Source: a virus
Length of the DNA stretch: 64,000 bases
Direction: 5' to 3' (one strand)
IMG/VR virus record: IMGVR_UViG_3300017987_000005
Span: 119,649 to 183,648 of that record
Under the pieces are notes generated by a model, which saw only the letters and a program-made list of their open reading frames with translations, searched no databases and had not been told where the DNA came from. The position numbers and the translations under genes were made by a program. Below, one piece after another: positions 50,741-64,000 of this stretch (positions are counted from its first letter, which is position 1; each line of letters opens with the position of its first letter).

Positions 50741-50770
50741 ATACTAACTCTTAAAAAGAGATTGTCACCT

Positions 50771-51127
50771 TGGAGGTGGGGGGAATTGCACCCCCGTCCT
50801 GTAATGCCTCATGCATCGCGTCTACAATCATAGCCAGCGAGCGTCGTAATTTAGAAGCTAGTAACTTGTCTGGCTCATTCCTAGCGTTCGAGTCTTCGTT
50901 GGTTTCTCTGCTCTCAGACGGTAAAGACTTCCTCTTCCGAGCACAGCCGATACATTTACGTCCCTCGCTATAATATCGGCGTCATGCAGCAGGGACGGGT
51001 GCGTTTAAGCAGCCATTTTTACTGGTTTTGCATTTATCATGCTTGAGTGGATTGATGACGGGGCCAACCACTCATCCCCGGATTGCAGCTTAACAGTCTA
51101 ACATCCAGTCAAGCCTAAATCACCCCC
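50771..51127 (-). ncRNA. ssrA: tmRNA (ssrA)
   Basis: 357 nt. The 5' end GGGGGTG pairs with the 3' strand CACCTCC, followed by a T-arm (GGGGG, 7-nt loop, CCCCC), the tRNA-like end of tmRNA. Inside is a short frame GCA AAA CCA GTA AAA ATG GCT GCT TAA (51031-51005) that would give the tag AKPVKMAA, ending in the hydrophobic-Ala-Ala expected for ClpXP recognition. After the discriminator A comes AGG, not CCA. It rescues stalled ribosomes and tags unfinished proteins. Confidence 0.8.
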
Positions 51128-58542: not shown

Positions 58543-58617
58543 TGGTATCCCCGGATGGAATCGAACCATCATCTAAAGCTTAGGAGGCTTTCGTAATATC
58601 CATTATACTACGGGAAC
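58543..58617 (-). tRNA. tRNA-Arg(CCU)
   Basis: Anticodon loop CTCCTAA in stem AAAGC/GCTTT. Normal D and T arms, CCA encoded. Reads AGG. Lowest-coordinate tRNA of the array. Confidence 0.85.
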
Positions 58618-58618
58618 A

Positions 58619-58693
58619 TGGTACTCCCTGAAGGAATCGAACCCTCATCATCAGCTTAGAAGGCTGTTGCACTTTCCGTTGTGCTAAGGGAGC
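58619..58693 (-). tRNA. tRNA-Arg(UCU)
   Basis: Anticodon loop CTTCTAA in stem CAGC/GCTG. CCA encoded. Reads AGA. Confidence 0.85.
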
Positions 58694-58694
58694 A

Positions 58695-58772
58695 TGGTGG
58701 ACGGGGTTGGATTTGAACCAACGACTCCTGCATTTTCAGTGCAGAGCTACTACCTGGCTGAGCTACCCGTCC
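58695..58772 (-). tRNA. tRNA-Phe(GAA)
   Basis: Acceptor GGACGGG/CCCGTCC, loop CTGAAAA, CCA encoded. Its 5' end overlaps the 3' end of the 154-aa gene by 10 bp. Confidence 0.88.
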
Positions 58773-59227
58773 TCTTCATTTCTATCTTCCTCATGGTCAT
58801 TATCGGTCTGCACAGTGCATCCCAACTTATTAACCTCGTCACACACATCTTTAAGAAATTCTCTCGTACCGTCACTGGCGTATGACTCCCATCCTTTTTC
58901 GTAATCCCTCGGATTAATCCATCCGAATATGCTGAAATCCTGGACGTATTCGAGTCTCTTAAATCCGCGTTCCTCAAACTCATTAATAAATCTTCGGTCG
59001 GTAACAACTTCTGACGAACGCACAGTCGGTTGACGATGCTTGCGCTCACTACTACTATAAAGTCTGTAATGACGCGCGATAGCTTCCTCTTCAAGAAGGC
59101 TATATATTCGAGCGAAGACTTCTACAGAAATCTTATAGAACTCATCATAGCTGAGTCGCTCTTCGTGCGTCACAATTACACAGCTACTATCTTCAGGAGA
59201 ACCGTAACCAAAACGATAACAATACAT
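58763..59227 (-). CDS. Unknown protein between tRNAs
   Basis: 154 aa. Acidic; helical (SYDEFYKISVEVFARIYSLL) then DFSIFGWINPRDYEKG and an acidic tail. The 3' end overlaps tRNA-Phe by 10 bp. Function unknown. Confidence 0.5.
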   Translation of the reverse strand: MYCYRFGYGSPEDSSCVIVTHEERLSYDEFYKISVEVFARIYSLLEEEAIARHYRLYSSSERKHRQPTVRSSEVVTDRRFINEFEERGFKRLEYVQDFSIFGWINPRDYEKGWESYASDGTREFLKDVCDEVNKLGCTVQTDNDHEEDRNEEDG

Positions 59228-59244
59228 GCATCTCCTTTTCTATC

Positions 59245-59319
59245 TGGTAGGCGCGGGAAGAGTTGAACTTCCGTTAGAAGTTTATAAGACTTCCGTTCTT
59301 ACCGTTGAACTACGCGCCA
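59245..59319 (-). tRNA. tRNA-Ile(UAU)
   Basis: Anticodon loop CTTATAA in stem GAAGT/ACTTC, reading the rare codon AUA. CCA encoded. The first acceptor pair is U1-U72, a mismatch; the other six pairs are normal. Confidence 0.75.
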
Positions 59320-59555
59320 GCTAAAGGTATAAGCTTATCCTCAGCGACAAGCAAATAACAACGATTTCCATCATCCATCTTAAAAGTACAAGGCCACGAA
59401 ACTCCCCAATGAGACGCACTCCACGACTCACGTGGTTCGTCTTTAATGGTCAGGTCTTCATAATCACGTTCTACATGCTTGACCTTCTGACCTATTCGGA
59501 AATCCTTTTTGACTCGAAATGTCCCGCATAATTTTCCAACAAACGACTCACCCAT
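59310..59555 (-). CDS. Unknown small protein
   Basis: 81 aa with AAGGAGCGGG before the ATG. Beta-rich (GVSWPCTFKMDDGNRCYLLV). Its 3' end overlaps tRNA-Ile by 10 bp, as the previous gene overlaps tRNA-Phe. Function unknown. Confidence 0.5.
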   Translation of the reverse strand: MGESFVGKLCGTFRVKKDFRIGQKVKHVERDYEDLTIKDEPRESWSASHWGVSWPCTFKMDDGNRCYLLVAEDKLIPLAGA

Positions 59556-59574
59556 AACCCGCTCCTTTAATATC

Positions 59575-59652
59575 TGGTGGGCCCACAGGGATTTGAACCC
59601 CGGACACGCGCATTATGAGTGCGACGCTCTAACCAGACTGAGCTATGGGCCC
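59575..59652 (-). tRNA. tRNA with CAU anticodon (Met or Ile2)
   Basis: Acceptor GGGCCCA/TGGGCCC, loop CTCATAA, standard 5-nt variable loop, CCA encoded. Elongator Met and lysidine-modified Ile cannot be separated by eye. Confidence 0.8.
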
Positions 59653-59664
59653 GTGATAAATAAA

Positions 59665-59743
59665 TGGTCCTGCGAGGAGGATTTGAACCTCCGACCTCCT
59701 CCTTATCAGGGAGGCGCTACTAACCGGGCTGAGCTACCGCAGG
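59665..59743 (-). tRNA. tRNA-Ile(GAU)
   Basis: Anticodon loop CTGATAA in stem CCTCC/GGAGG, CCA encoded. Reads AUC/AUU. Confidence 0.85.
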
Positions 59744-59746
59744 ATA

Positions 59747-59820
59747 TGGTTGCCCTACAGGGATTTGAACCCCAACTAATTGATTCAGAGTCAATCGTGC
59801 TACCGTTACACTATAGGGCA
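59747..59820 (-). tRNA. tRNA-Gln(CUG)
   Basis: Acceptor TGCCCTA/TAGGGCA, loop CTCTGAA, CCA encoded. Reads CAG. Confidence 0.85.
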
Positions 59821-59827
59821 AAATACA

Positions 59828-59849
59828 GGGTTGCTGCAAAGCGCAACCC
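59828..59849 (-). other. Short hairpin between tRNAs
   Basis: GGGTTGC (59828-59834) and its complement (59843-59849) form a 7-bp stem just upstream (5') of tRNA-Gln; only TGTATTTT follows. May mark a processing site or weak terminator. The rest of the 80-bp spacer to tRNA-Val shows nothing. Confidence 0.35.
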
Positions 59850-59899
59850 CAACTCCTTCTGCTCTTACATCAAAAATAAATGGCAGATGAGATAATATA

Positions 59900-59975
59900 T
59901 GGTGGGCGCGAGAGGATTCGAACCTCCGACTTCTTGCTTGTAAGGCAAGCGCTCTAGCCGCTGAACTACGCGCCC
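59900..59975 (-). tRNA. tRNA-Val(UAC)
   Basis: Acceptor GGGCGCG/CGCGCCC, loop CTTACAA, CCA encoded. Confidence 0.88.
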
Positions 59976-59977
59976 AA

Positions 59978-60055
59978 TGGCGAGGGTGACGGGACTCGAA
60001 CCCGCAAACTTCCTGCTCGACAGGCAGGTGCTCTACGCTATTGAACTACACCCCC
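59978..60055 (-). tRNA. tRNA-Asp(GUC)
   Basis: Acceptor GGGGGTG/CACCCTC, loop CTGTCGA, discriminator G, CCA encoded. Confidence 0.85.
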
Positions 60056-60065
60056 GTGTAATAAC

Positions 60066-60276
60066 TGGTGAGCATGACGGGATTCGAACCCGCACCGCAG
60101 CATTTAGGCCCAGCCGCTCATTAAGCTTTCCACTCTTTTCTCCCGTATATCCCTTCATCACTGCTTCCTCACCACAGAGCGAACTCTGGTCCCAGGTGTG
60201 ATAGACAGGTCAGCGAGCACTTACGGGTGCCTCGACAGGTCCACTTAAATCGTTCTACCAATTAAACTACATGCTC
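60066..60276 (-). tRNA. Oversized tRNA-like gene with a central insertion
   Basis: The 5' GAGCATG pairs perfectly with the 3' CATGCTC; a D-arm (GTTT/GAAC), a T-arm with TTCGAAT and an encoded CCA are present. But the total is 211 nt, about 135 nt more than a tRNA, with a strong CAGAG-TTCG-CTCTG hairpin in the extra part. A stem ATTTA/TAAAT can form where the anticodon stem should be. It could hold an intron or be a fusion of broken tRNAs; the anticodon is not determined. Confidence 0.5.
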
Positions 60277-60281
60277 AAACA

Positions 60282-60417
60282 TGGTCGCCAGCGGGGAGGT
60301 TCTCACTCCCATAGGCGGCTAACTCCTATTCAATCTCGATTCGAATCACCCGCAGCCGACGCGGTACACTTCGAATCTACAGCAGGGAATCGGTCACCCT
60401 GCTTGGCATCGCTGGCA
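60282..60417 (-). tRNA. Oversized, degenerate tRNA-like sequence
   Basis: Both ends pair (GCCAGC with GCTGGC) and CCA can be read at the 3' end, with a T-arm-like GGGAG/CTCCC, but the T-loop is atypical and the 136-nt total includes a 7-bp hairpin (AGCAGGG/CCCTGCT) where the D-arm should be. No anticodon arm is clear. A boxA-like element lies directly upstream. It is a degenerate tRNA or another small RNA. Confidence 0.4.
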
Positions 60418-60422
60418 TATAA

Positions 60423-60434
60423 TTTTCAAAGAAC
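60423..60434 (-). promoter_or_regulatory. boxA-like element
   Basis: GTTCTTTGAAAA on the minus strand, between tRNA-Gln(UUG) and the 136-nt tRNA-like sequence. Confidence 0.5.
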
Positions 60435-60511
60435 TGGTTACCCCGGAAGGATTTGAACCTTCAACAGCGACATTCAAAGTGTCGTGCTCTAGCCAATTGA
60501 GCTACGGGGTA
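60435..60511 (-). tRNA. tRNA-Gln(UUG)
   Basis: Acceptor TACCCCG/CGGGGTA, loop CTTTGAA in stem CGACA/TGTCG, CCA encoded. Confidence 0.85.
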
Positions 60512-60533
60512 TTATATATTTACGAAAGAACAA

Positions 60534-60549
60534 CTGCAAACGATTGCAA
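60534..60549. repeat. TTGCAA-type motif, copy 4
   Basis: CTGCAAACGATTGCAA, the fourth copy of the motif, in the spacer between tRNA-Gln and tRNA-Lys(CUU), one mismatch in one half site. Confidence 0.45.
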
Positions 60550-60554
60550 AAAAA

Positions 60555-60629
60555 TGGTGGGCCGAGAAGGGGTCGAACCTTCAACCTTCGGATTAAGAGT
60601 CCGCTGCTCTGCCATTGAGCTACCGGCCC
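60555..60629 (-). tRNA. tRNA-Lys(CUU)
   Basis: Acceptor GGGCCGG/TCGGCCC, loop CTCTTAA, CCA encoded. Reads AAG. Confidence 0.85.
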
Positions 60630-60630
60630 T

Positions 60631-60661
60631 TGGTGTGCTGAGAGAGATTCGAACTCAGTCG
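60631..60661 (-). pseudogene. 3' tRNA fragment overlapping the HNH gene end
   Basis: A 3' tRNA end only: GAG-TTCGAAT-CTC T-arm-like, then CAGCACA and CCA. It overlaps the stop codon of the HNH gene at 60655. No matching 5' half with a good acceptor complement is present. It is probably the remnant of a tRNA gene broken by insertion of the endonuclease gene. Confidence 0.55.
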
Positions 60662-61059
60662 TCCCAATGAATAATCCTGTGACAGTTAGAGCAAACTACA
60701 TCGCACTTAGCTATCTCAGCGTCAATTCTTTCAAACGACCAACATCTCGCAACAGCTAACGACAATTCCGAATCTTTGTCCCCGGACTCGCGATGATGAA
60801 AATCCAAACATCTTGGGTCACTCATCCCGCACACTACACAAGGATGGCTGCTCTTATAATCAAACAAGTACTTCCTACGAATAGCTCTATTATCGCGATT
60901 AGTCTTAACACGCTTAGCTCTATCCCTACGGTAATACTTCTTAGAGTATTCAGCCATACACTCCTTACATCTCGTCTGGAGTCCGTCGGCCTGCTTACTA
61001 TTTTTAGAGAACAAAGATACGTCTTTACGCTTTCCACACTTTCCGCATAACTTATCCAT
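60655..61059 (-). CDS. HNH endonuclease inserted in the tRNA array
   Basis: 134 aa. N-terminal zinc ribbon (LCGKCGKRKDV, CKECMAEYSKKYYRRD) and an HNH core PCVVCGMSDPRCLDFHHRES...CDVVCSNCHRIIHW with the H-N-H residues and zinc cysteines. It has its own promoter and lies between an intact tRNA-Lys(UUU) and a 3' tRNA fragment. Likely a homing endonuclease. Confidence 0.8.
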   Translation of the reverse strand: MDKLCGKCGKRKDVSLFSKNSKQADGLQTRCKECMAEYSKKYYRRDRAKRVKTNRDNRAIRRKYLFDYKSSHPCVVCGMSDPRCLDFHHRESGDKDSELSLAVARCWSFERIDAEIAKCDVVCSNCHRIIHWDD

Positions 61060-61086
61060 AGCGATTCCTTAATTATAGTCATCCCT

Positions 61087-61114
61087 ATAGTAGCACTTTT
61101 AATCACTATGTCAA
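61087..61114 (-). promoter_or_regulatory. Promoter of the HNH gene, TTGACA-16-TACTAT
   Basis: TTGACA at 61114-61109 and TACTAT at 61092-61087 on the minus strand. The same pair with the same spacing precedes the HTH gene at 62437, and differs from the TATAAT promoters elsewhere. Confidence 0.65.
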
Positions 61115-61125
61115 ATTAAAAATAA

Positions 61126-61202
61126 TGGTGGGACCGGTGGAAGTCGAATCCACAACCCCCGGATTAAAAGTCCGGTGCTCTATCCAGTTGAGCTACGGCC
61201 CC
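61126..61202 (-). tRNA. tRNA-Lys(UUU)
   Basis: Acceptor GGGGCCG/CGGTCCC, loop CTTTTAA in stem CCGGA/TCCGG, CCA encoded. Intact, located between a broken 5' tRNA fragment and the HNH gene. Confidence 0.88.
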
Positions 61203-61208
61203 GTATCA

Positions 61209-61262
61209 AGGCTGCAACTCACACTGAAAAGTGCGGTACTCTATCCGTTGAGTTACCAGCCC
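61209..61262 (-). pseudogene. 5' fragment of a tRNA-Lys-like gene
   Basis: GGGCTGG (acceptor 5' strand), a D-arm (ACTC/GAGT), then CCGCA and CTTTT, a Lys(UUU)-type start of the anticodon loop. After that the sequence no longer pairs; no T-arm or 3' acceptor exists nearby. It is a broken tRNA gene of the same identity as the intact tRNA-Lys(UUU) next to it. Confidence 0.6.
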
Positions 61263-61264
61263 GT

Positions 61265-61608
61265 CTACTTACGTTTTCGCTTTCGTTTGTCCACTATATC
61301 TATTCCTTTATAATCTTCTAAATACCACTTAATAACAGTCATAACTACGTTCCGAAATTCCACTCCCCACACATCGCAAATACTCTCATGCAATCGGGTC
61401 AGTATCGTCTTCGGCTTCCATCCATGCTTCAGCGAATCCTCTACTAAATCAATCCAATCTGGCAACCAGTTGCGTTGATGTAGATTATGGAAAATTACGC
61501 CAAAGGCAATCCGTGCCTATCAAAGAGCTTGAAGACTCCCTTCACAACGAGCTTCCCTTCCGGAGTCTTCCCTGAAAAAGAAAGCTTCAACTTCTTCTTA
61601 CGTCCCAT
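61265..61608 (-). pseudogene. Frameshifted small gene between tRNAs
   Basis: An ATG at 61608 with AAGGAG opens a 37-codon frame (MGRKKKLKLSFSGKTPEGKL, then VFKLFDRHGLPLA) that stops at 61495. The frame at -1 is open past it and continues as FGVIFHNLHQRN, LPDWIDLVEDSLKHGWKP, to a stop at 61265. The two parts read as one protein across GGATTGCCTTTGGCG, but no canonical slippery site is there. It is either a frameshift mutation or a non-canonical programmed shift. Alone, the second part lacks a good start (only TTG at 61465). Confidence 0.55.
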
Positions 61609-61625
61609 GACGTCTCCTTATATAT

Positions 61626-61702
61626 TGGGGTGAGCGACGGGGGTCGAACCCGTACCTTCAGGGCCACAACCTGACATGCAGAGCCGCTACACTACGCCCA
61701 CC
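61626..61702 (-). tRNA. tRNA-His(GUG)
   Basis: Loop TTGTGGC, discriminator C, and the extra G at -1 that pairs with C73 is encoded at 61702. CCA encoded. Confidence 0.88.
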
Positions 61703-61712
61703 GTGTAAATCA

Positions 61713-61754
61713 TGGAGCGGGTATGGAGATTCAAACTCCACCTTCTAGCCTGGG
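61713..61754 (-). tRNA. 3' half of a split tRNA-Gly(CCC)
   Basis: CCCAG, then GCTAG (anticodon stem), variable bases AAGG, T-arm TGGAG/CTCCA with loop TTTGAAT, acceptor TACCCGC, discriminator U and CCA. It matches the 5' half at 62618-62651 base for base (7/7 acceptor and 5/5 anticodon-stem pairs). Joined length is 76 nt. Confidence 0.75.
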
Positions 61755-61759
61755 ATGAA

Positions 61760-62437
61760 TCACATAACCCACTCTTCTTTTTCAAATCCTACAAACTCCT
61801 GAATAGCGCCATATAATTTTTGAATAACTTCCGTACAACAAACTGAAACATTACACAATCCATAAACATTTGATTTTCTTTTATGCTTAGAACTACTCGG
61901 ATATCTATCAACTTGCGGCTTCGTAAAATTATCAATAGATATACCTAAAAGCTCTGACCAATATTGTTCAATGTCACTGACAGTCAGCCCCTTATCAGTA
62001 TAACAAACAACATATGCTCGCATCTTATCACTAGAAACATTAAAGAACTTACGCAAAAACTTAACATAAAATAACATCATATTCTCGTCCATATTTGAAA
62101 ACTTAGCTTGGTTTCGCAACGTCTTACTTCCTTCTGCCCAATATAACATGCACCCTGCTATGAATTCAGGGTCTCGTTCCCGAGCAAGCTCTCTTCCATC
62201 ATTTTGCCACTGCTCTCTAAGCTTACGATAATATTTTTTCCTACGCTGCCCTTCAGCATATGGACCTTTTCTCGAATTATCGTAGATAATTTTCTCCTGC
62301 TCAGCAGTAAGCTGTATATCACGAACCCACACACTAACCGTCCCTTTGCTTACGCCAAGCTTATCAGCAATAACTGATAAAGGAAGTCCATCCTCCTTGC
62401 GCATCCTACGGGCTTCTTTACGCTCTTTAGCTTTCAT
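61760..62437 (-). CDS. HTH protein with LAGLIDADG-like motif, inside a split tRNA-Gly
   Basis: 225 aa. N-terminal HTH (SVIADKLGVSKGTVSVWVRD), a basic linker, then FIAGCMLYWAEGSKT, resembling a single LAGLIDADG-type helix, and a C-terminal half with VYGLCNVSVCCTEVIQ. It has its own promoter at 62478-62505 and sits within the intervening DNA of a split tRNA-Gly. It may be a homing endonuclease or a mobility protein; nuclease activity is inference. Confidence 0.6.
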   Translation of the reverse strand: MKAKERKEARRMRKEDGLPLSVIADKLGVSKGTVSVWVRDIQLTAEQEKIIYDNSRKGPYAEGQRRKKYYRKLREQWQNDGRELARERDPEFIAGCMLYWAEGSKTLRNQAKFSNMDENMMLFYVKFLRKFFNVSSDKMRAYVVCYTDKGLTVSDIEQYWSELLGISIDNFTKPQVDRYPSSSKHKRKSNVYGLCNVSVCCTEVIQKLYGAIQEFVGFEKEEWVM

Positions 62438-62452
62438 AATAACTCCTTAAAT

Positions 62453-62495
62453 AGAACTCACGTATATATACATATATATAGTAGACATAAGTTCT
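62453..62495. repeat. Inverted repeat around the HTH gene promoter
   Basis: AGAACT (62453-62458) and AGTTCT (62490-62495) flank an AT-rich stretch with the -10 box. A possible autoregulation site for the HTH protein. Confidence 0.4.
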
Positions 62496-62505
62496 AAAAT
62501 GTCAA
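62478..62505 (-). promoter_or_regulatory. Promoter of the HTH gene, TTGACA-16-TACTAT
   Basis: TTGACA at 62505-62500 and TACTAT at 62483-62478 on the minus strand, same architecture as the HNH gene promoter at 61087-61114. Confidence 0.65.
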
Positions 62506-62522
62506 CTAAAAAGCGAAAAAAG

Positions 62523-62596
62523 AGCGAGAGGCGGGCCTCGAACCCGCAACCTTTTGCCTGGGAAGCAAATGCTCTGCCTATTTGAGCTACTCCCGC
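62523..62596 (-). tRNA. tRNA-Gly(CCC), intact copy inside the split gene
   Basis: Acceptor GCGGGAG/CTCTCGC, loop TTCCCAG in stem TTTGC/GCAAA, discriminator U. CCA is not encoded (CT follows). Reads GGG. It lies within the 863-bp insert that splits another tRNA-Gly(CCC). Confidence 0.85.
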
Positions 62597-62617
62597 ATTA
62601 TATCAAAAGTGTCAATG

Positions 62618-62651
62618 AAGCTAGCGTGCTAATCGCTGACACTATACCCGC
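62618..62651 (-). tRNA. 5' half of a split tRNA-Gly(CCC)
   Basis: GCGGGTA, TA, D-arm GTGT/GCAC, then CTAGC and TT: exactly positions 1-33 of a tRNA. The remaining 42 nt of the same tRNA lie at 61713-61754. The break is between U33 and the first anticodon base. Confidence 0.75.
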
Positions 62652-62652
62652 A

Positions 62653-62728
62653 TGGAGTGAGCGACGGGGGTCGAACCCGCGACCATCAGATTGGAAATCT
62701 GAGACTCTACCAACTGAGTTACGCTCAC
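62653..62728 (-). tRNA. tRNA-Gly(UCC)
   Basis: Acceptor GTGAGCG/CGCTCAC, loop TTTCCAA in stem CAGA/TCTG, discriminator U, CCA encoded. Confidence 0.87.
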
Positions 62729-62740
62729 ATTCAAATCAAT

Positions 62741-62753
62741 TTTCAAAAGAACA
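62741..62753 (-). promoter_or_regulatory. boxA-like element, one extra T
   Basis: TGTTCTTTTGAAA on the minus strand, between tRNA-Gly(UCC) and tRNA-Thr(GGU). Confidence 0.45.
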
Positions 62754-62756
62754 ATA

Positions 62757-62832
62757 TGGAGCTGACGGCGGGAATCGAACCCGCGACCTCATCCTTACCA
62801 AGGATGTGCTCTACCGGCTGAGCTACGTCAGC
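62757..62832 (-). tRNA. tRNA-Thr(GGU)
   Basis: Acceptor GCTGACG/CGTCAGC, loop TTGGTAA, discriminator U, CCA encoded. Confidence 0.87.
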
Positions 62833-62839
62833 CTATTAA

Positions 62840-63036
62840 AATCCAGTTCCGTAAGCGGGATTCTGTTCTATCCTATCATTTATCTTTGCCACTACCATTC
62901 CTCATCGGGCTGCTCACCCCCTCGGATAATTCGTGTTGCTCCCTCGGTGGTGCAATCGAGTGCAAACTCTCCCACCTTAAGCAGCGGAGTCCCGACTTTC
63001 CTCAGACTTACGTCCGCGATAGGTCGAACTGGATAT
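62840..63036 (-). ncRNA. rnpB: RNase P RNA, miniature (rnpB)
   Basis: About 197 nt. P1 is a perfect 9-bp helix (ATCCAGTTC at 63034-63026, GAACTGGAT at 62849-62841). Downstream of its 5' strand lies GAGGAAAGTC (63003-62994), the conserved region I of bacterial RNase P RNA, and near the 3' end ACAGAATCCCGCTTA (62866-62852) is conserved region V; these form the catalytic P4 pairing. It lies between two tRNA-Thr genes. At half the usual length, several helices of the specificity domain must be missing. It would trim 5' leaders of the tRNA array. Confidence 0.82.
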
Positions 63037-63043
63037 CTATTTA

Positions 63044-63119
63044 TGGAGCCACGAGTCGGACTCGAACCGACAACCTGTTGATTACAAGTCAACTGCACTT
63101 CCAATTGTGCTACCGTGGC
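63044..63119 (-). tRNA. tRNA-Thr(UGU)
   Basis: Acceptor GCCACGG/TCGTGGC, loop CTTGTAA in stem GTTGA/TCAAC, CCA encoded. Confidence 0.87.
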
Positions 63120-63122
63120 ATA

Positions 63123-63200
63123 TGGAGCCGGCGGGGGGACTCGAACCCTCCAACTTCCGCATTACGAGTGCGGCGCTCTGCCAATTAAAGCTACGCCGGC
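63123..63200 (-). tRNA. tRNA-Thr(CGU)
   Basis: Acceptor GCCGGCG/CGCCGGC, loop CTCGTAA in stem CCGCA/TGCGG, CCA encoded. Confidence 0.87.
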
Positions 63201-63203
63201 TTA

Positions 63204-63279
63204 TCGGGCTGAATGGATTCGAACCATCGGTCTCGTGGCCCCCAGCCACGCGTCTTAAGCCAAGCTAGACTACAGCCCG
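63204..63279 (-). tRNA. tRNA-Pro(GGG), no encoded CCA
   Basis: Acceptor CGGGCTG/CAGCCCG, loop CTGGGGG in stem CGTGG/CCACG. Discriminator A then TAA, so CCA must be added. Reads CCC. Confidence 0.82.
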
Positions 63280-63287
63280 TTTATTTT

Positions 63288-63364
63288 TGGTCTGGATGAG
63301 AGGATTTGAACCTCCGACTTCGTGCTCCCAAGGCACGCGCCCTACCAAGCTGGGCTACATCCAG
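63288..63364 (-). tRNA. tRNA-Pro(UGG)
   Basis: Acceptor CTGGATG/CATCCAG, loop CTTGGGA in stem CGTGC/GCACG, CCA encoded. Confidence 0.87.
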
Positions 63365-63367
63365 ATA

Positions 63368-63441
63368 TGGAGCGGGTACCGAGAATCGAACTCGGATTTC
63401 CTCCTCGGCAGGGAGGTACATTACCATTATGTTACACCCGC
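63368..63441 (-). tRNA. tRNA-Gly(GCC)
   Basis: Acceptor GCGGGTG/TACCCGC, loop CTGCCGA in stem CCTCC/GGAGG, discriminator U, CCA encoded. Confidence 0.87.
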
Positions 63442-63444
63442 TTA

Positions 63445-63521
63445 TGGTGGAGGCGACAGGATTCGAACCTGCGACAGTCTGCTTGCAAGGCAGATGCTCT
63501 CCCGGACTGAGCTACGCCCCC
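63445..63521 (-). tRNA. tRNA-Ala(UGC)
   Basis: Acceptor GGGGGCG/CGCCTCC, loop CTTGCAA in stem TCTGC/GCAGA, CCA encoded. G3 faces U70, the Ala identity pair. Confidence 0.88.
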
Positions 63522-63546
63522 AGTTTATAGGCATCCATATTTACAT

Positions 63547-63557
63547 TGTCAAAGAGC
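63547..63557 (-). promoter_or_regulatory. boxA-like element
   Basis: GCTCTTTGACA on the minus strand, the form known from enterobacterial rRNA leaders (TGCTCTTTGACA), between tRNA-CAU and tRNA-Ala. Confidence 0.55.
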
Positions 63558-63569
63558 TATAAAATATAT

Positions 63570-63646
63570 TGGTAGCTGAGGGGGGACTCGAACCCCCGGT
63601 CTCTGCCTTATGAGAGCAGCGCTTTAGCCAGCTAAGCTACTCAGCC
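63570..63646 (-). tRNA. tRNA with CAU anticodon (Met or Ile2)
   Basis: Acceptor GGCTGAG/CTCAGCT, loop CTCATAA in stem CTGCT/GGCAG, CCA encoded, normal variable loop. Identity not separable by eye. Confidence 0.8.
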
Positions 63647-63655
63647 ATTTATTCC

Positions 63656-63741
63656 TGGTGCTTCCGGGGAGATTCGAACTCCCACCCCATCGCTGAGACA
63701 TGGACCTGAACCATGCGTGTCTGCCGTTCCACCACGGAAGC
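63656..63741 (-). tRNA. tRNA-Leu(CAG)
   Basis: Class II with long variable arm. Acceptor GCTTCCG/CGGAAGC, loop TTCAGGT in stem CATGG/CCATG, CCA encoded. Confidence 0.87.
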
Positions 63742-63742
63742 A

Positions 63743-63818
63743 TGGTACGCGGGAAGAGATTTGAACTCTTACTGTACAGGTTCTAAGCCTGGCGCCTCTG
63801 CCGTTGGGCTACCCGCGC
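63743..63818 (-). tRNA. tRNA with UAG anticodon on a class I body
   Basis: Acceptor GCGCGGG/CCCGCGT, loop CTTAGAA, variable loop only 5 nt, T-arm AAGAG/CTCTT, CCA encoded. UAG reads the Leu codon CUA, but bacterial tRNA-Leu always has a long variable arm, as the two Leu tRNAs on either side do. Its first anticodon-stem pair is also mismatched. Confidence 0.7.
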
Positions 63819-63821
63819 ATA

Positions 63822-63910
63822 TGGTGTCCTTGGAGGGATTCGAACCCTCACCACGCGATTATGCGGACTAGGCCCTCAACCTAGCGTGTCTGCCATTCCA
63901 CCACAAGGAC
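63822..63910 (-). tRNA. tRNA-Leu(GAG)
   Basis: Class II with long variable arm. Acceptor GTCCTTG/CAAGGAC, loop TTGAGGG in stem CTAGG/CCTAG, CCA encoded. Confidence 0.87.
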
Positions 63911-63920
63911 AAATCTCTAT

Positions 63921-63932
63921 ATTTCAAAGAGC
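63921..63932 (-). promoter_or_regulatory. boxA-like element
   Basis: GCTCTTTGAAAT on the minus strand, between tRNA-Pro(CGG) and tRNA-Leu(GAG). Confidence 0.5.
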
Positions 63933-63938
63933 GATATT

Positions 63939-64000
63939 TGGTCGGGGTGAGAAGATTCGAACTTCCGACCTCAGCGTCCCGAACGCTGCGCGCTAGCCAA
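63939..64000 (-). tRNA. tRNA-Pro(CGG), 5' end outside the window
   Basis: The 3' part of the gene: loop TTCGGGA in stem CAGCG/CGCTG, T-arm with TTCGAAT, acceptor CACCCCG, CCA encoded. The array evidently continues beyond the window. Confidence 0.8.

Follow-up and report, generated by a model that had tools for sequence, protein, structure and literature searches.

A tRNA-Lys(UUU) locus with an HNH gene in a phage tRNA array: layout and recurrence suggest mobile cutters that bring a replacement tRNA

In the tRNA array of a virus, an HNH endonuclease gene and an intact tRNA-Lys(UUU) gene lie between two tRNA fragments. This layout recurs in unrelated viruses and is suggestive of mobile cutters by which a tRNA gene is broken and at the same time replaced. 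The explanation we hold to be likely is that of a free-standing homing endonuclease cassette, which would target the anticodon region of one tRNA gene and carry a replacement tRNA, either whole or as a 5' part. The tRNA-Lys(UUU) locus itself is a probable, not a proven, decayed member of this class of split tRNA genes with a spare, owing to the weak pairing of its two fragments, and its assignment follows from its layout and its company rather than from that pairing.

The tRNA-Lys(UUU) locus and its companions

The window, i.e., the whole stretch of 64,000 nucleotides that was analyzed, is the right end (119649-183648) of a virus record of 183,648 bases, which is linear according to IMG/VR. 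A tRNA array on the minus strand spans 58543-64000 of the window (ARAGORN, Rfam) and resumes at the left end of the record; since it is present at both record ends, these probably join. The parts of the locus, in the order of transcription, and a tmRNA gene of the window are:

61262-61227 (clear; weaker to about 61210), minus strand: orphan 5' part of a tRNA-Lys(UUU)-like gene (alignment, 5'-half profile)
61202-61126, minus strand: intact tRNA-Lys(UUU), presumed spare of the cassette (ARAGORN; Rfam 69.7 bits)
61114-61087, minus strand: promoter-like site TTGACA-16-TACTAT, 5' of the HNH gene (10 of 12 consensus bases)
61059-60655, minus strand: HNH endonuclease gene, 134 aa (PHROG_2255, E 5.9e-34)
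60658-60631, minus strand: orphan 3' tRNA part with T arm, acceptor 3' strand and CCA (11.4 bits, E 0.02)
50770-51127, minus strand: tmRNA gene (Rfam 100.8 bits)

The first-pass annotation had proposed this order of fragment, tRNA-Lys, promoter, HNH gene and fragment, and the coordinates on the minus strand bear it out. Its description of the 5' fragment as Lys(UUU)-type also holds: the fragment (GGGCTGG TA ACTCAACGGATAGAGT ACCGCACTTTT at 61262-61227) matches the adjoining intact tRNA-Lys(UUU) at 30 of 37 aligned positions and reaches 11.9 bits (E 0.022) with a 5'-half profile, and is hence tRNA-Lys-like rather than unrelated to tRNA-Lys. Exact-pattern scans for both fragments gave no match. 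The 3' fragment overlaps the stop codon of the HNH gene. In the promoter-like site, TG precedes the second hexamer; seven promoter-like sites were found in the region, with 4.4 expected in shuffles.

The HNH protein is encoded by a free-standing ORF outside any intron (as searched with Rfam families) or intein and has an intact catalytic motif. It comprises an N-terminal CxxC zinc ribbon, a long helix and a C-terminal CxxC..HH..CxNCHR HNH motif, and two alignments, with 33 and 27 rows, show conservation of the CxxC pairs as well as the H..N..H residues (H89, N125, H127). Although the AlphaFold model has a mean pLDDT of 95.2, a fold search gave weak matches (best E 0.28; Hpy99I and Cap5, beta-beta-alpha-Me nucleases, are among the ranks), and the HNH assignment therefore rests on sequence. 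No Pfam model was matched above its cut-off; in the Pfam and PHROG searches no GIY-YIG domain was found, with HNH and endonuclease VII-type matches instead.

Poor pairing of the two fragments had been pointed out before and was evident here as well, with five Watson-Crick pairs and one G-U among the seven of the acceptor (6/7) and 3/5 pairs in the T stem. Mismatched 5' and 3' fragments reach 6/7 acceptor pairs in about 37 of 331 combinations (~11%) and 7/7 in one of 331, and within the window alone the two Lys fragments are weak evidence for one split gene. Pairing is also seen between the 5' fragment and its own tail (GGCTG/CAGCC), so that this fragment may be a separately decayed tRNA. ARAGORN called 5 of 396 joins of the Lys fragments, the best four being shown without a proper anticodon, and some joins of mismatched fragments scored higher. 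A tRNA-like Rfam match over the 3' end of the HNH gene (60720-60636; 21.9 bits, below the 29-bit cut-off) was judged to be due to chance, as it falls on conserved HNH coding sequence.

Two clearer cases, Gly(CCC) and Cys(GCA), are present in the same virus. The first lies directly in the window:

62651-62617, minus strand: orphan 5' half of tRNA-Gly(CCC) with its 3' end in the anticodon loop (pairing with the 3' half)
62596-62522, minus strand: intact tRNA-Gly(CCC), presumed spare (ARAGORN)
62505-62478, minus strand: promoter with the TTGACA-16-TACTAT hexamers and spacing of the Lys case
62437-61760, minus strand: presumed endonuclease gene, 225 aa, with a helix-turn-helix N-terminus
61753-61713, minus strand: orphan 3' half of tRNA-Gly(CCC) with its 5' end in the anticodon loop

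Here, the halves pair at 7/7 acceptor and 5/5 anticodon stem positions, and the break is located inside the anticodon loop. The likeness that had been claimed between the two loci was recovered both in the order (5' half, intact tRNA, promoter, nuclease gene, 3' half) and in the promoters at 61114-61087 and 62505-62478, which share hexamers and spacing. It does not extend to the nuclease, as the 225-aa protein of the Gly case is not detectably HNH and contains a helix-turn-helix as the only domain recognized by Pfam or PHROG; its structure model is poor (pLDDT 47.6), and no relatives were found in viral contigs or phage records. The Cys(GCA) case at the left end of the record features a 5' half, an HNH gene, an intact tRNA-Cys(GCA) that overlaps the end of this gene, and a 3' part; the halves form six Watson-Crick pairs and one G-U of seven acceptor pairs, and its HNH protein is 37% identical to that of the window.

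Against this background, coincidence in a decaying tRNA array, i.e., unrelated tRNA remnants around an HNH gene that happened to insert between tRNA genes, which is common for HNH genes, appears rather improbable. It would account for the weak pairing of the Lys fragments and for the pairing of the 5' fragment with its own tail, and HNH insertion between tRNA genes does occur, as in phage BPS15Q2 (see below). However, the order, the same-anticodon spare and the promoter type of the Lys locus match those of the clear cases, both within this virus (Gly, Cys) and at other loci, and the 3' tRNA part lies on the HNH stop codon, as it does in those cases.

Further elements of the array deserve mention. 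An RNase P RNA (class A)-like match of ~200 nt lies inside the phage tRNA array (62836-63035, minus strand; 61 bits, E 3.2e-17, under the gathering score of 100 bits). At 60065-60277 (minus strand), a tRNA-like gene carries an insert of ~113 nt in its anticodon loop, is called as Phe(AAA) in the intron mode of ARAGORN and matches none of the Rfam intron families; its insert holds the word AGTGATGA, which is common to the permuted units at the left end. The adjacent 60283-60420 (minus strand) is a tRNA-like element of 138 nt with a 7-bp acceptor (GCCAGCG/CGCTGGC), an ACCA end and an odd T loop (TGAGAAC), which is called by neither ARAGORN nor Rfam. In L276 (record C1:1-8000; minus strand, about C1:1865-985), tandem and apparently circularly permuted tRNA genes occur, with the 3' half before the 5' half. 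In four units the adjoining acceptor strands pair 7/7, as seen by eye (TCCCCCG/CGGGGGA, TCAGGGG/CCCCTGA, CTCTCCC/GGGAGAG and CGGGGGC/GCCCCCG); flanks like GTGATGA..GTTACTTC and TTCGCTACTTTCCTG..GTTCTTT are common to six units, and Rfam gave no intron family match in them.

Recurrence and occupied versus empty sites

Profile scans and phage records yielded 258 loci (our own count), 10 of which were dropped for lack of a recognizable CxNCH motif. The remaining 248, together with the HNH genes of the window and of the left-end Cys case, made 250 sets, 193 of which remained after redundancy removal at 90% identity over 120 bases. A tRNA lies within 500 bp in 88 of these 193 non-redundant loci (80 of the 88 in HNH orientation), so HNH genes of this kind are not absent from tRNA sites elsewhere; 105 have no tRNA at this distance, and 35 of the 88 have neither tRNA nor fragment at their stop.

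Of the 88 HNH genes, 17 have an orphan 3' tRNA part no more than 60 nt from their stop, versus 4 of the 194 other tRNA-near ORFs in these loci (P 1.5e-6), and the difference persists when the comparison is made with the 141 ORFs having a same-strand tRNA (4/141, P 6e-5). Orphan 5' halves occur upstream of 8/88 HNH genes, compared to 2/194 other ORFs (P 0.002), and the start of an intact tRNA lies no more than 60 nt from the stop in 40/88 and 41/194, respectively, all counts being made on the same loci in which the first-listed cases were spotted by eye. Among nine matched pairs of 5' and 3' orphans, the acceptor pairs 7/7 in five, 6/7 in one (the window) and less in three; the full 7/7 is thus reached by 5/9 matched, versus the single one of 331 mismatched pairs. 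Two other detectors performed less well. Combining acceptor, D arm and T loop was too loose at a score of 14 (15/85 versus 10.5 in controls) and clean only at a score of 16 (3/85 versus 0), and ARAGORN, when applied to joined halves, called all 10 of 10 matched but also 25/90 mismatched pairs, for which reason joining was not used as proof.

At split loci, the insert holds a tRNA of the same anticodon in seven of eight cases, with 0.32 expected (P 8.6e-10; split anticodons read by eye off the 5' orphans):

Window: Lys
L002: Cys
L005: Pro (the 'spare' being the intact tRNA on the HNH 3' end)
L026: Arg
L045: Lys
L051: Thr
L237: Val (spare assigned manually as Val(UAC), with C33, which is unusual; not called by ARAGORN)

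The eighth, L082 (Asn), is split without a spare in the insert. As judged by eye, the 5' orphan extends through the anticodon in all eight and ends there or shortly 3' of it. In the unrelated viral contigs L026 (Arg ACG) and L237 (Val UAC), the 5' half is likewise followed by an intact tRNA of its own identity, then by the HNH gene and the 3' half, while the mirrored order, in which the HNH gene precedes the intact tRNA, is found in the Cys case of the same virus, in L045 and in the Streptomyces phage Wofford. The earlier suggestion that the Lys locus resembles the Gly case in origin but is older gains support from this recurrence, remaining probable and not proven for the Lys locus itself.

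No close relative of this virus was found, and the empty state of the Lys site was accordingly not seen; the alignment of the locus in related phages, which the first-pass annotation had proposed, was therefore run on named relatives of other carriers, two tRNA-Lys cases included. Five occupied/empty pairs of named phages document presence/absence polymorphism of an HNH insert at one site. In Wofford, the second tRNA-Met(CAU), which is intact in Elmer and Karimac, is split right after ..CTCATAATC by an insert of 705 bp that contains an HNH gene, a small ORF and a further tRNA-Met(CAU); at the junction, the split tRNA has lost 4 bp. Similarly, the tRNA-Lys(UUU) of Pseudomonas phage HHBS9_1, intact in JG005, is split right after CTTTTAA by 469 bp in which an HNH gene is accompanied by a second tRNA-Lys(UUU)-like 5' part, which is joined to the old T arm; the resulting hybrid pairs at 5/7 acceptor positions and is not called by ARAGORN, hence rescue is not always good. 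In Salmonella phage KE23, compared to SalP219, an HNH gene arrives with a new 5' part of tRNA-Lys(UUU), while T arm, acceptor and downstream sequence are unchanged except for one base in the stretch shown. Mycobacterium phage ArcherS7 differs from Bigswole by an HNH gene and a different tRNA-Pro(UGG), which replace the resident tRNA-Pro(UGG) between aligned flanks of 100% identity. The exception is BPS15Q2 versus HK3, where an HNH gene sits between tRNA-Gly and tRNA-Thr without split or spare and the 3' end of tRNA-Thr is the only tRNA difference. The arriving tRNA sequence thus has the identity of the tRNA that is broken or replaced in four of the five pairs. An insert that brings a replacement for the cut-off gene part and leaves the native part stranded is seen in HHBS9_1 and Wofford and, judged by sequence, in L026, L045 and L237; the window Lys locus has the same replacement-gene-end layout, with weak pairing.

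The anticodon loop is a classic intron site, and homing HNH genes often ride in introns. Insertion at or near this loop could hence also reflect an HNH-bearing intron, of group I or another self-splicing type, that is removed from the RNA. We consider this very improbable, as permissive Rfam searches for group I and II introns gave no match in the window array (E 5) or in 11 loci (E 0.5), a complete tRNA gene and a promoter of its own are part of the insert, and the Wofford junction lacks the 4 bp of the tRNA.

Proposed mechanism and tRNA identity

In the mechanism we propose for the homing cassette, the HNH enzyme would cut a tRNA gene at or just 3' of the anticodon, and repair from the donor genome would place the cassette in the break, which consists of the HNH gene, its own promoter and a same-identity tRNA gene, either complete or as its 5' part. 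Three end states could arise, according to the end point of recombination. The resident tRNA might persist as two stranded halves around a complete spare (the Lys, Gly and Cys cases of this virus; L026, L045, L237 and Wofford), with a common origin of the weakly pairing Lys locus being presumed; its 5' part might be renewed and the resident 3' part fused to it (HHBS9_1, KE23, L005); or the whole tRNA might be swapped (ArcherS7). The carried tRNA would restore decoding and, as its sequence differs, presumably escape cutting.

A further aspect is the relation between nuclease and tRNA identity. In a tree of 84 of the 88 HNH proteins, which has few columns and few supported forks, 66 of the 84 were considered with a neighbor at least 0.5 changes per column away, and the nearest neighbor shares the amino acid of the adjacent tRNA in 24 of these 66, versus 10.2 in shuffles (P 0.0006, uncorrected for phage kinship). 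The HNH protein of the window has that of L016 (Lys) as its nearest neighbor, and L002 groups with L044 (both Cys) and L065 with L216 (both Phe).

Homing in the manner of SegB would offer another explanation, in which the nuclease cuts anywhere in the array and drags neighboring tRNAs along, the identity rule being a by-product of recombination between like tRNAs. SegB indeed cuts many sites in tRNA genes and co-converts their flanks (PMC13096335, PMC2988022), and the cases of ArcherS7 and KE23 resemble co-conversion. Nevertheless, we regard this as unlikely, since it leaves unexplained the clade-wise tRNA identity and also those exact splits, just after the anticodon, in which neither half is lost and the insert includes a full tRNA (Wofford, Gly, L026, L237).

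The leaders of the HNH genes show an additional trait. At four of six loci where the nuclease directly follows the split half, the anticodon arm recurs in inverted form in the leader (shuffle P 0.016, 0.001, 0.003 and 0.042; 0.59 and 0.93 at the other two). In L051, L082, L002 and L098, this inverted copy lies directly 5' of the HNH start, and a hairpin is possible across the junction. A hairpin over the translation start is described for T4 homing genes including segB (PMC2988022), and by analogy the HNH leader hairpins may be regulatory.

Relation to known systems

Already known are HNH genes near phage tRNAs, a suspected role in tRNA diversity and homing by SegB. Full-text literature searches, at the level of titles and abstracts and with subscription papers and preprints outside their scope, returned no report of a same-identity spare inside a split phage tRNA gene. 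Within the literature searched, the structure of split gene plus spare is therefore the new part.

SegB is a free-standing homing nuclease of the GIY-YIG type in the tRNA arrays of T4 and T6, and in T6 there is microhomology between the 5' end of tRNA-Tyr and the 3' end of segB (PMC13096335). The cassettes described here resemble it in featuring a free-standing nuclease among phage tRNA genes that is tied to tRNA gene mobility, but their nuclease is HNH, and a split resident tRNA or a same-identity spare is not described for SegB in the passages considered. Mycobacteriophage arrays are alike in having HNH genes beside tRNA genes, where these are implicated in the diversity of the tRNA repertoire (Pope et al., 2014, as cited in PMC5966550, PMC6409571 and PMC7589089). 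Closest in logic to HHBS9_1 and L005 are the mobile ORFs of fungal mitochondria, e.g., in atp6 of Allomyces and in atp6, atp9, cox2 and nad3 of Glomus, where an endonuclease ORF in a gene brings a foreign replacement end and the native end is stranded (PMC3630166). In contrast to the phage tRNA genes with their whole spare or 5' part, these mitochondrial elements affect protein genes and carry C-terminal pieces.

Homing cassettes of this type would provide phages with a concrete route to swap and diversify tRNA genes, and would account for the presence of tRNA fragments next to genes of endonucleases. Wofford versus Elmer and Karimac as well as HHBS9_1 versus JG005 are isolates that differ by a defined insert in one tRNA gene. 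The cassettes would also tie nuclease specificity to tRNA identity, which is of interest since phage tRNA genes gain value from bacterial defences that cut tRNAs. A bolder generalization, which we offer tentatively and would not yet call likely, is a broad class of natural home-and-rescue drives in phage tRNA arrays. Here, HNH or other nucleases tied to tRNA identity and directed at the anticodon region would destroy the resident tRNA and install a cut-proof copy, repeated rounds would reshape the arrays and leave the tRNA pseudogenes of large phages, and the second nuclease type, that of the Gly case, would have converged on this design within one virus.

Integrase-type tRNA elements, which are marked by an integrase gene and a direct repeat of the tRNA 3' end, differ from the cassettes described here, in which the 5' part or the whole tRNA is renewed. 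In synthetic home-and-rescue and cleave-and-rescue drives, the gene destroyed by the nuclease is a needed one, and a functional, uncuttable copy of it comes with the element. These drives are engineered, whereas the phage cassettes, with the presumed resistance of their spare, would be a natural counterpart of such rescue-carrying gene drives.
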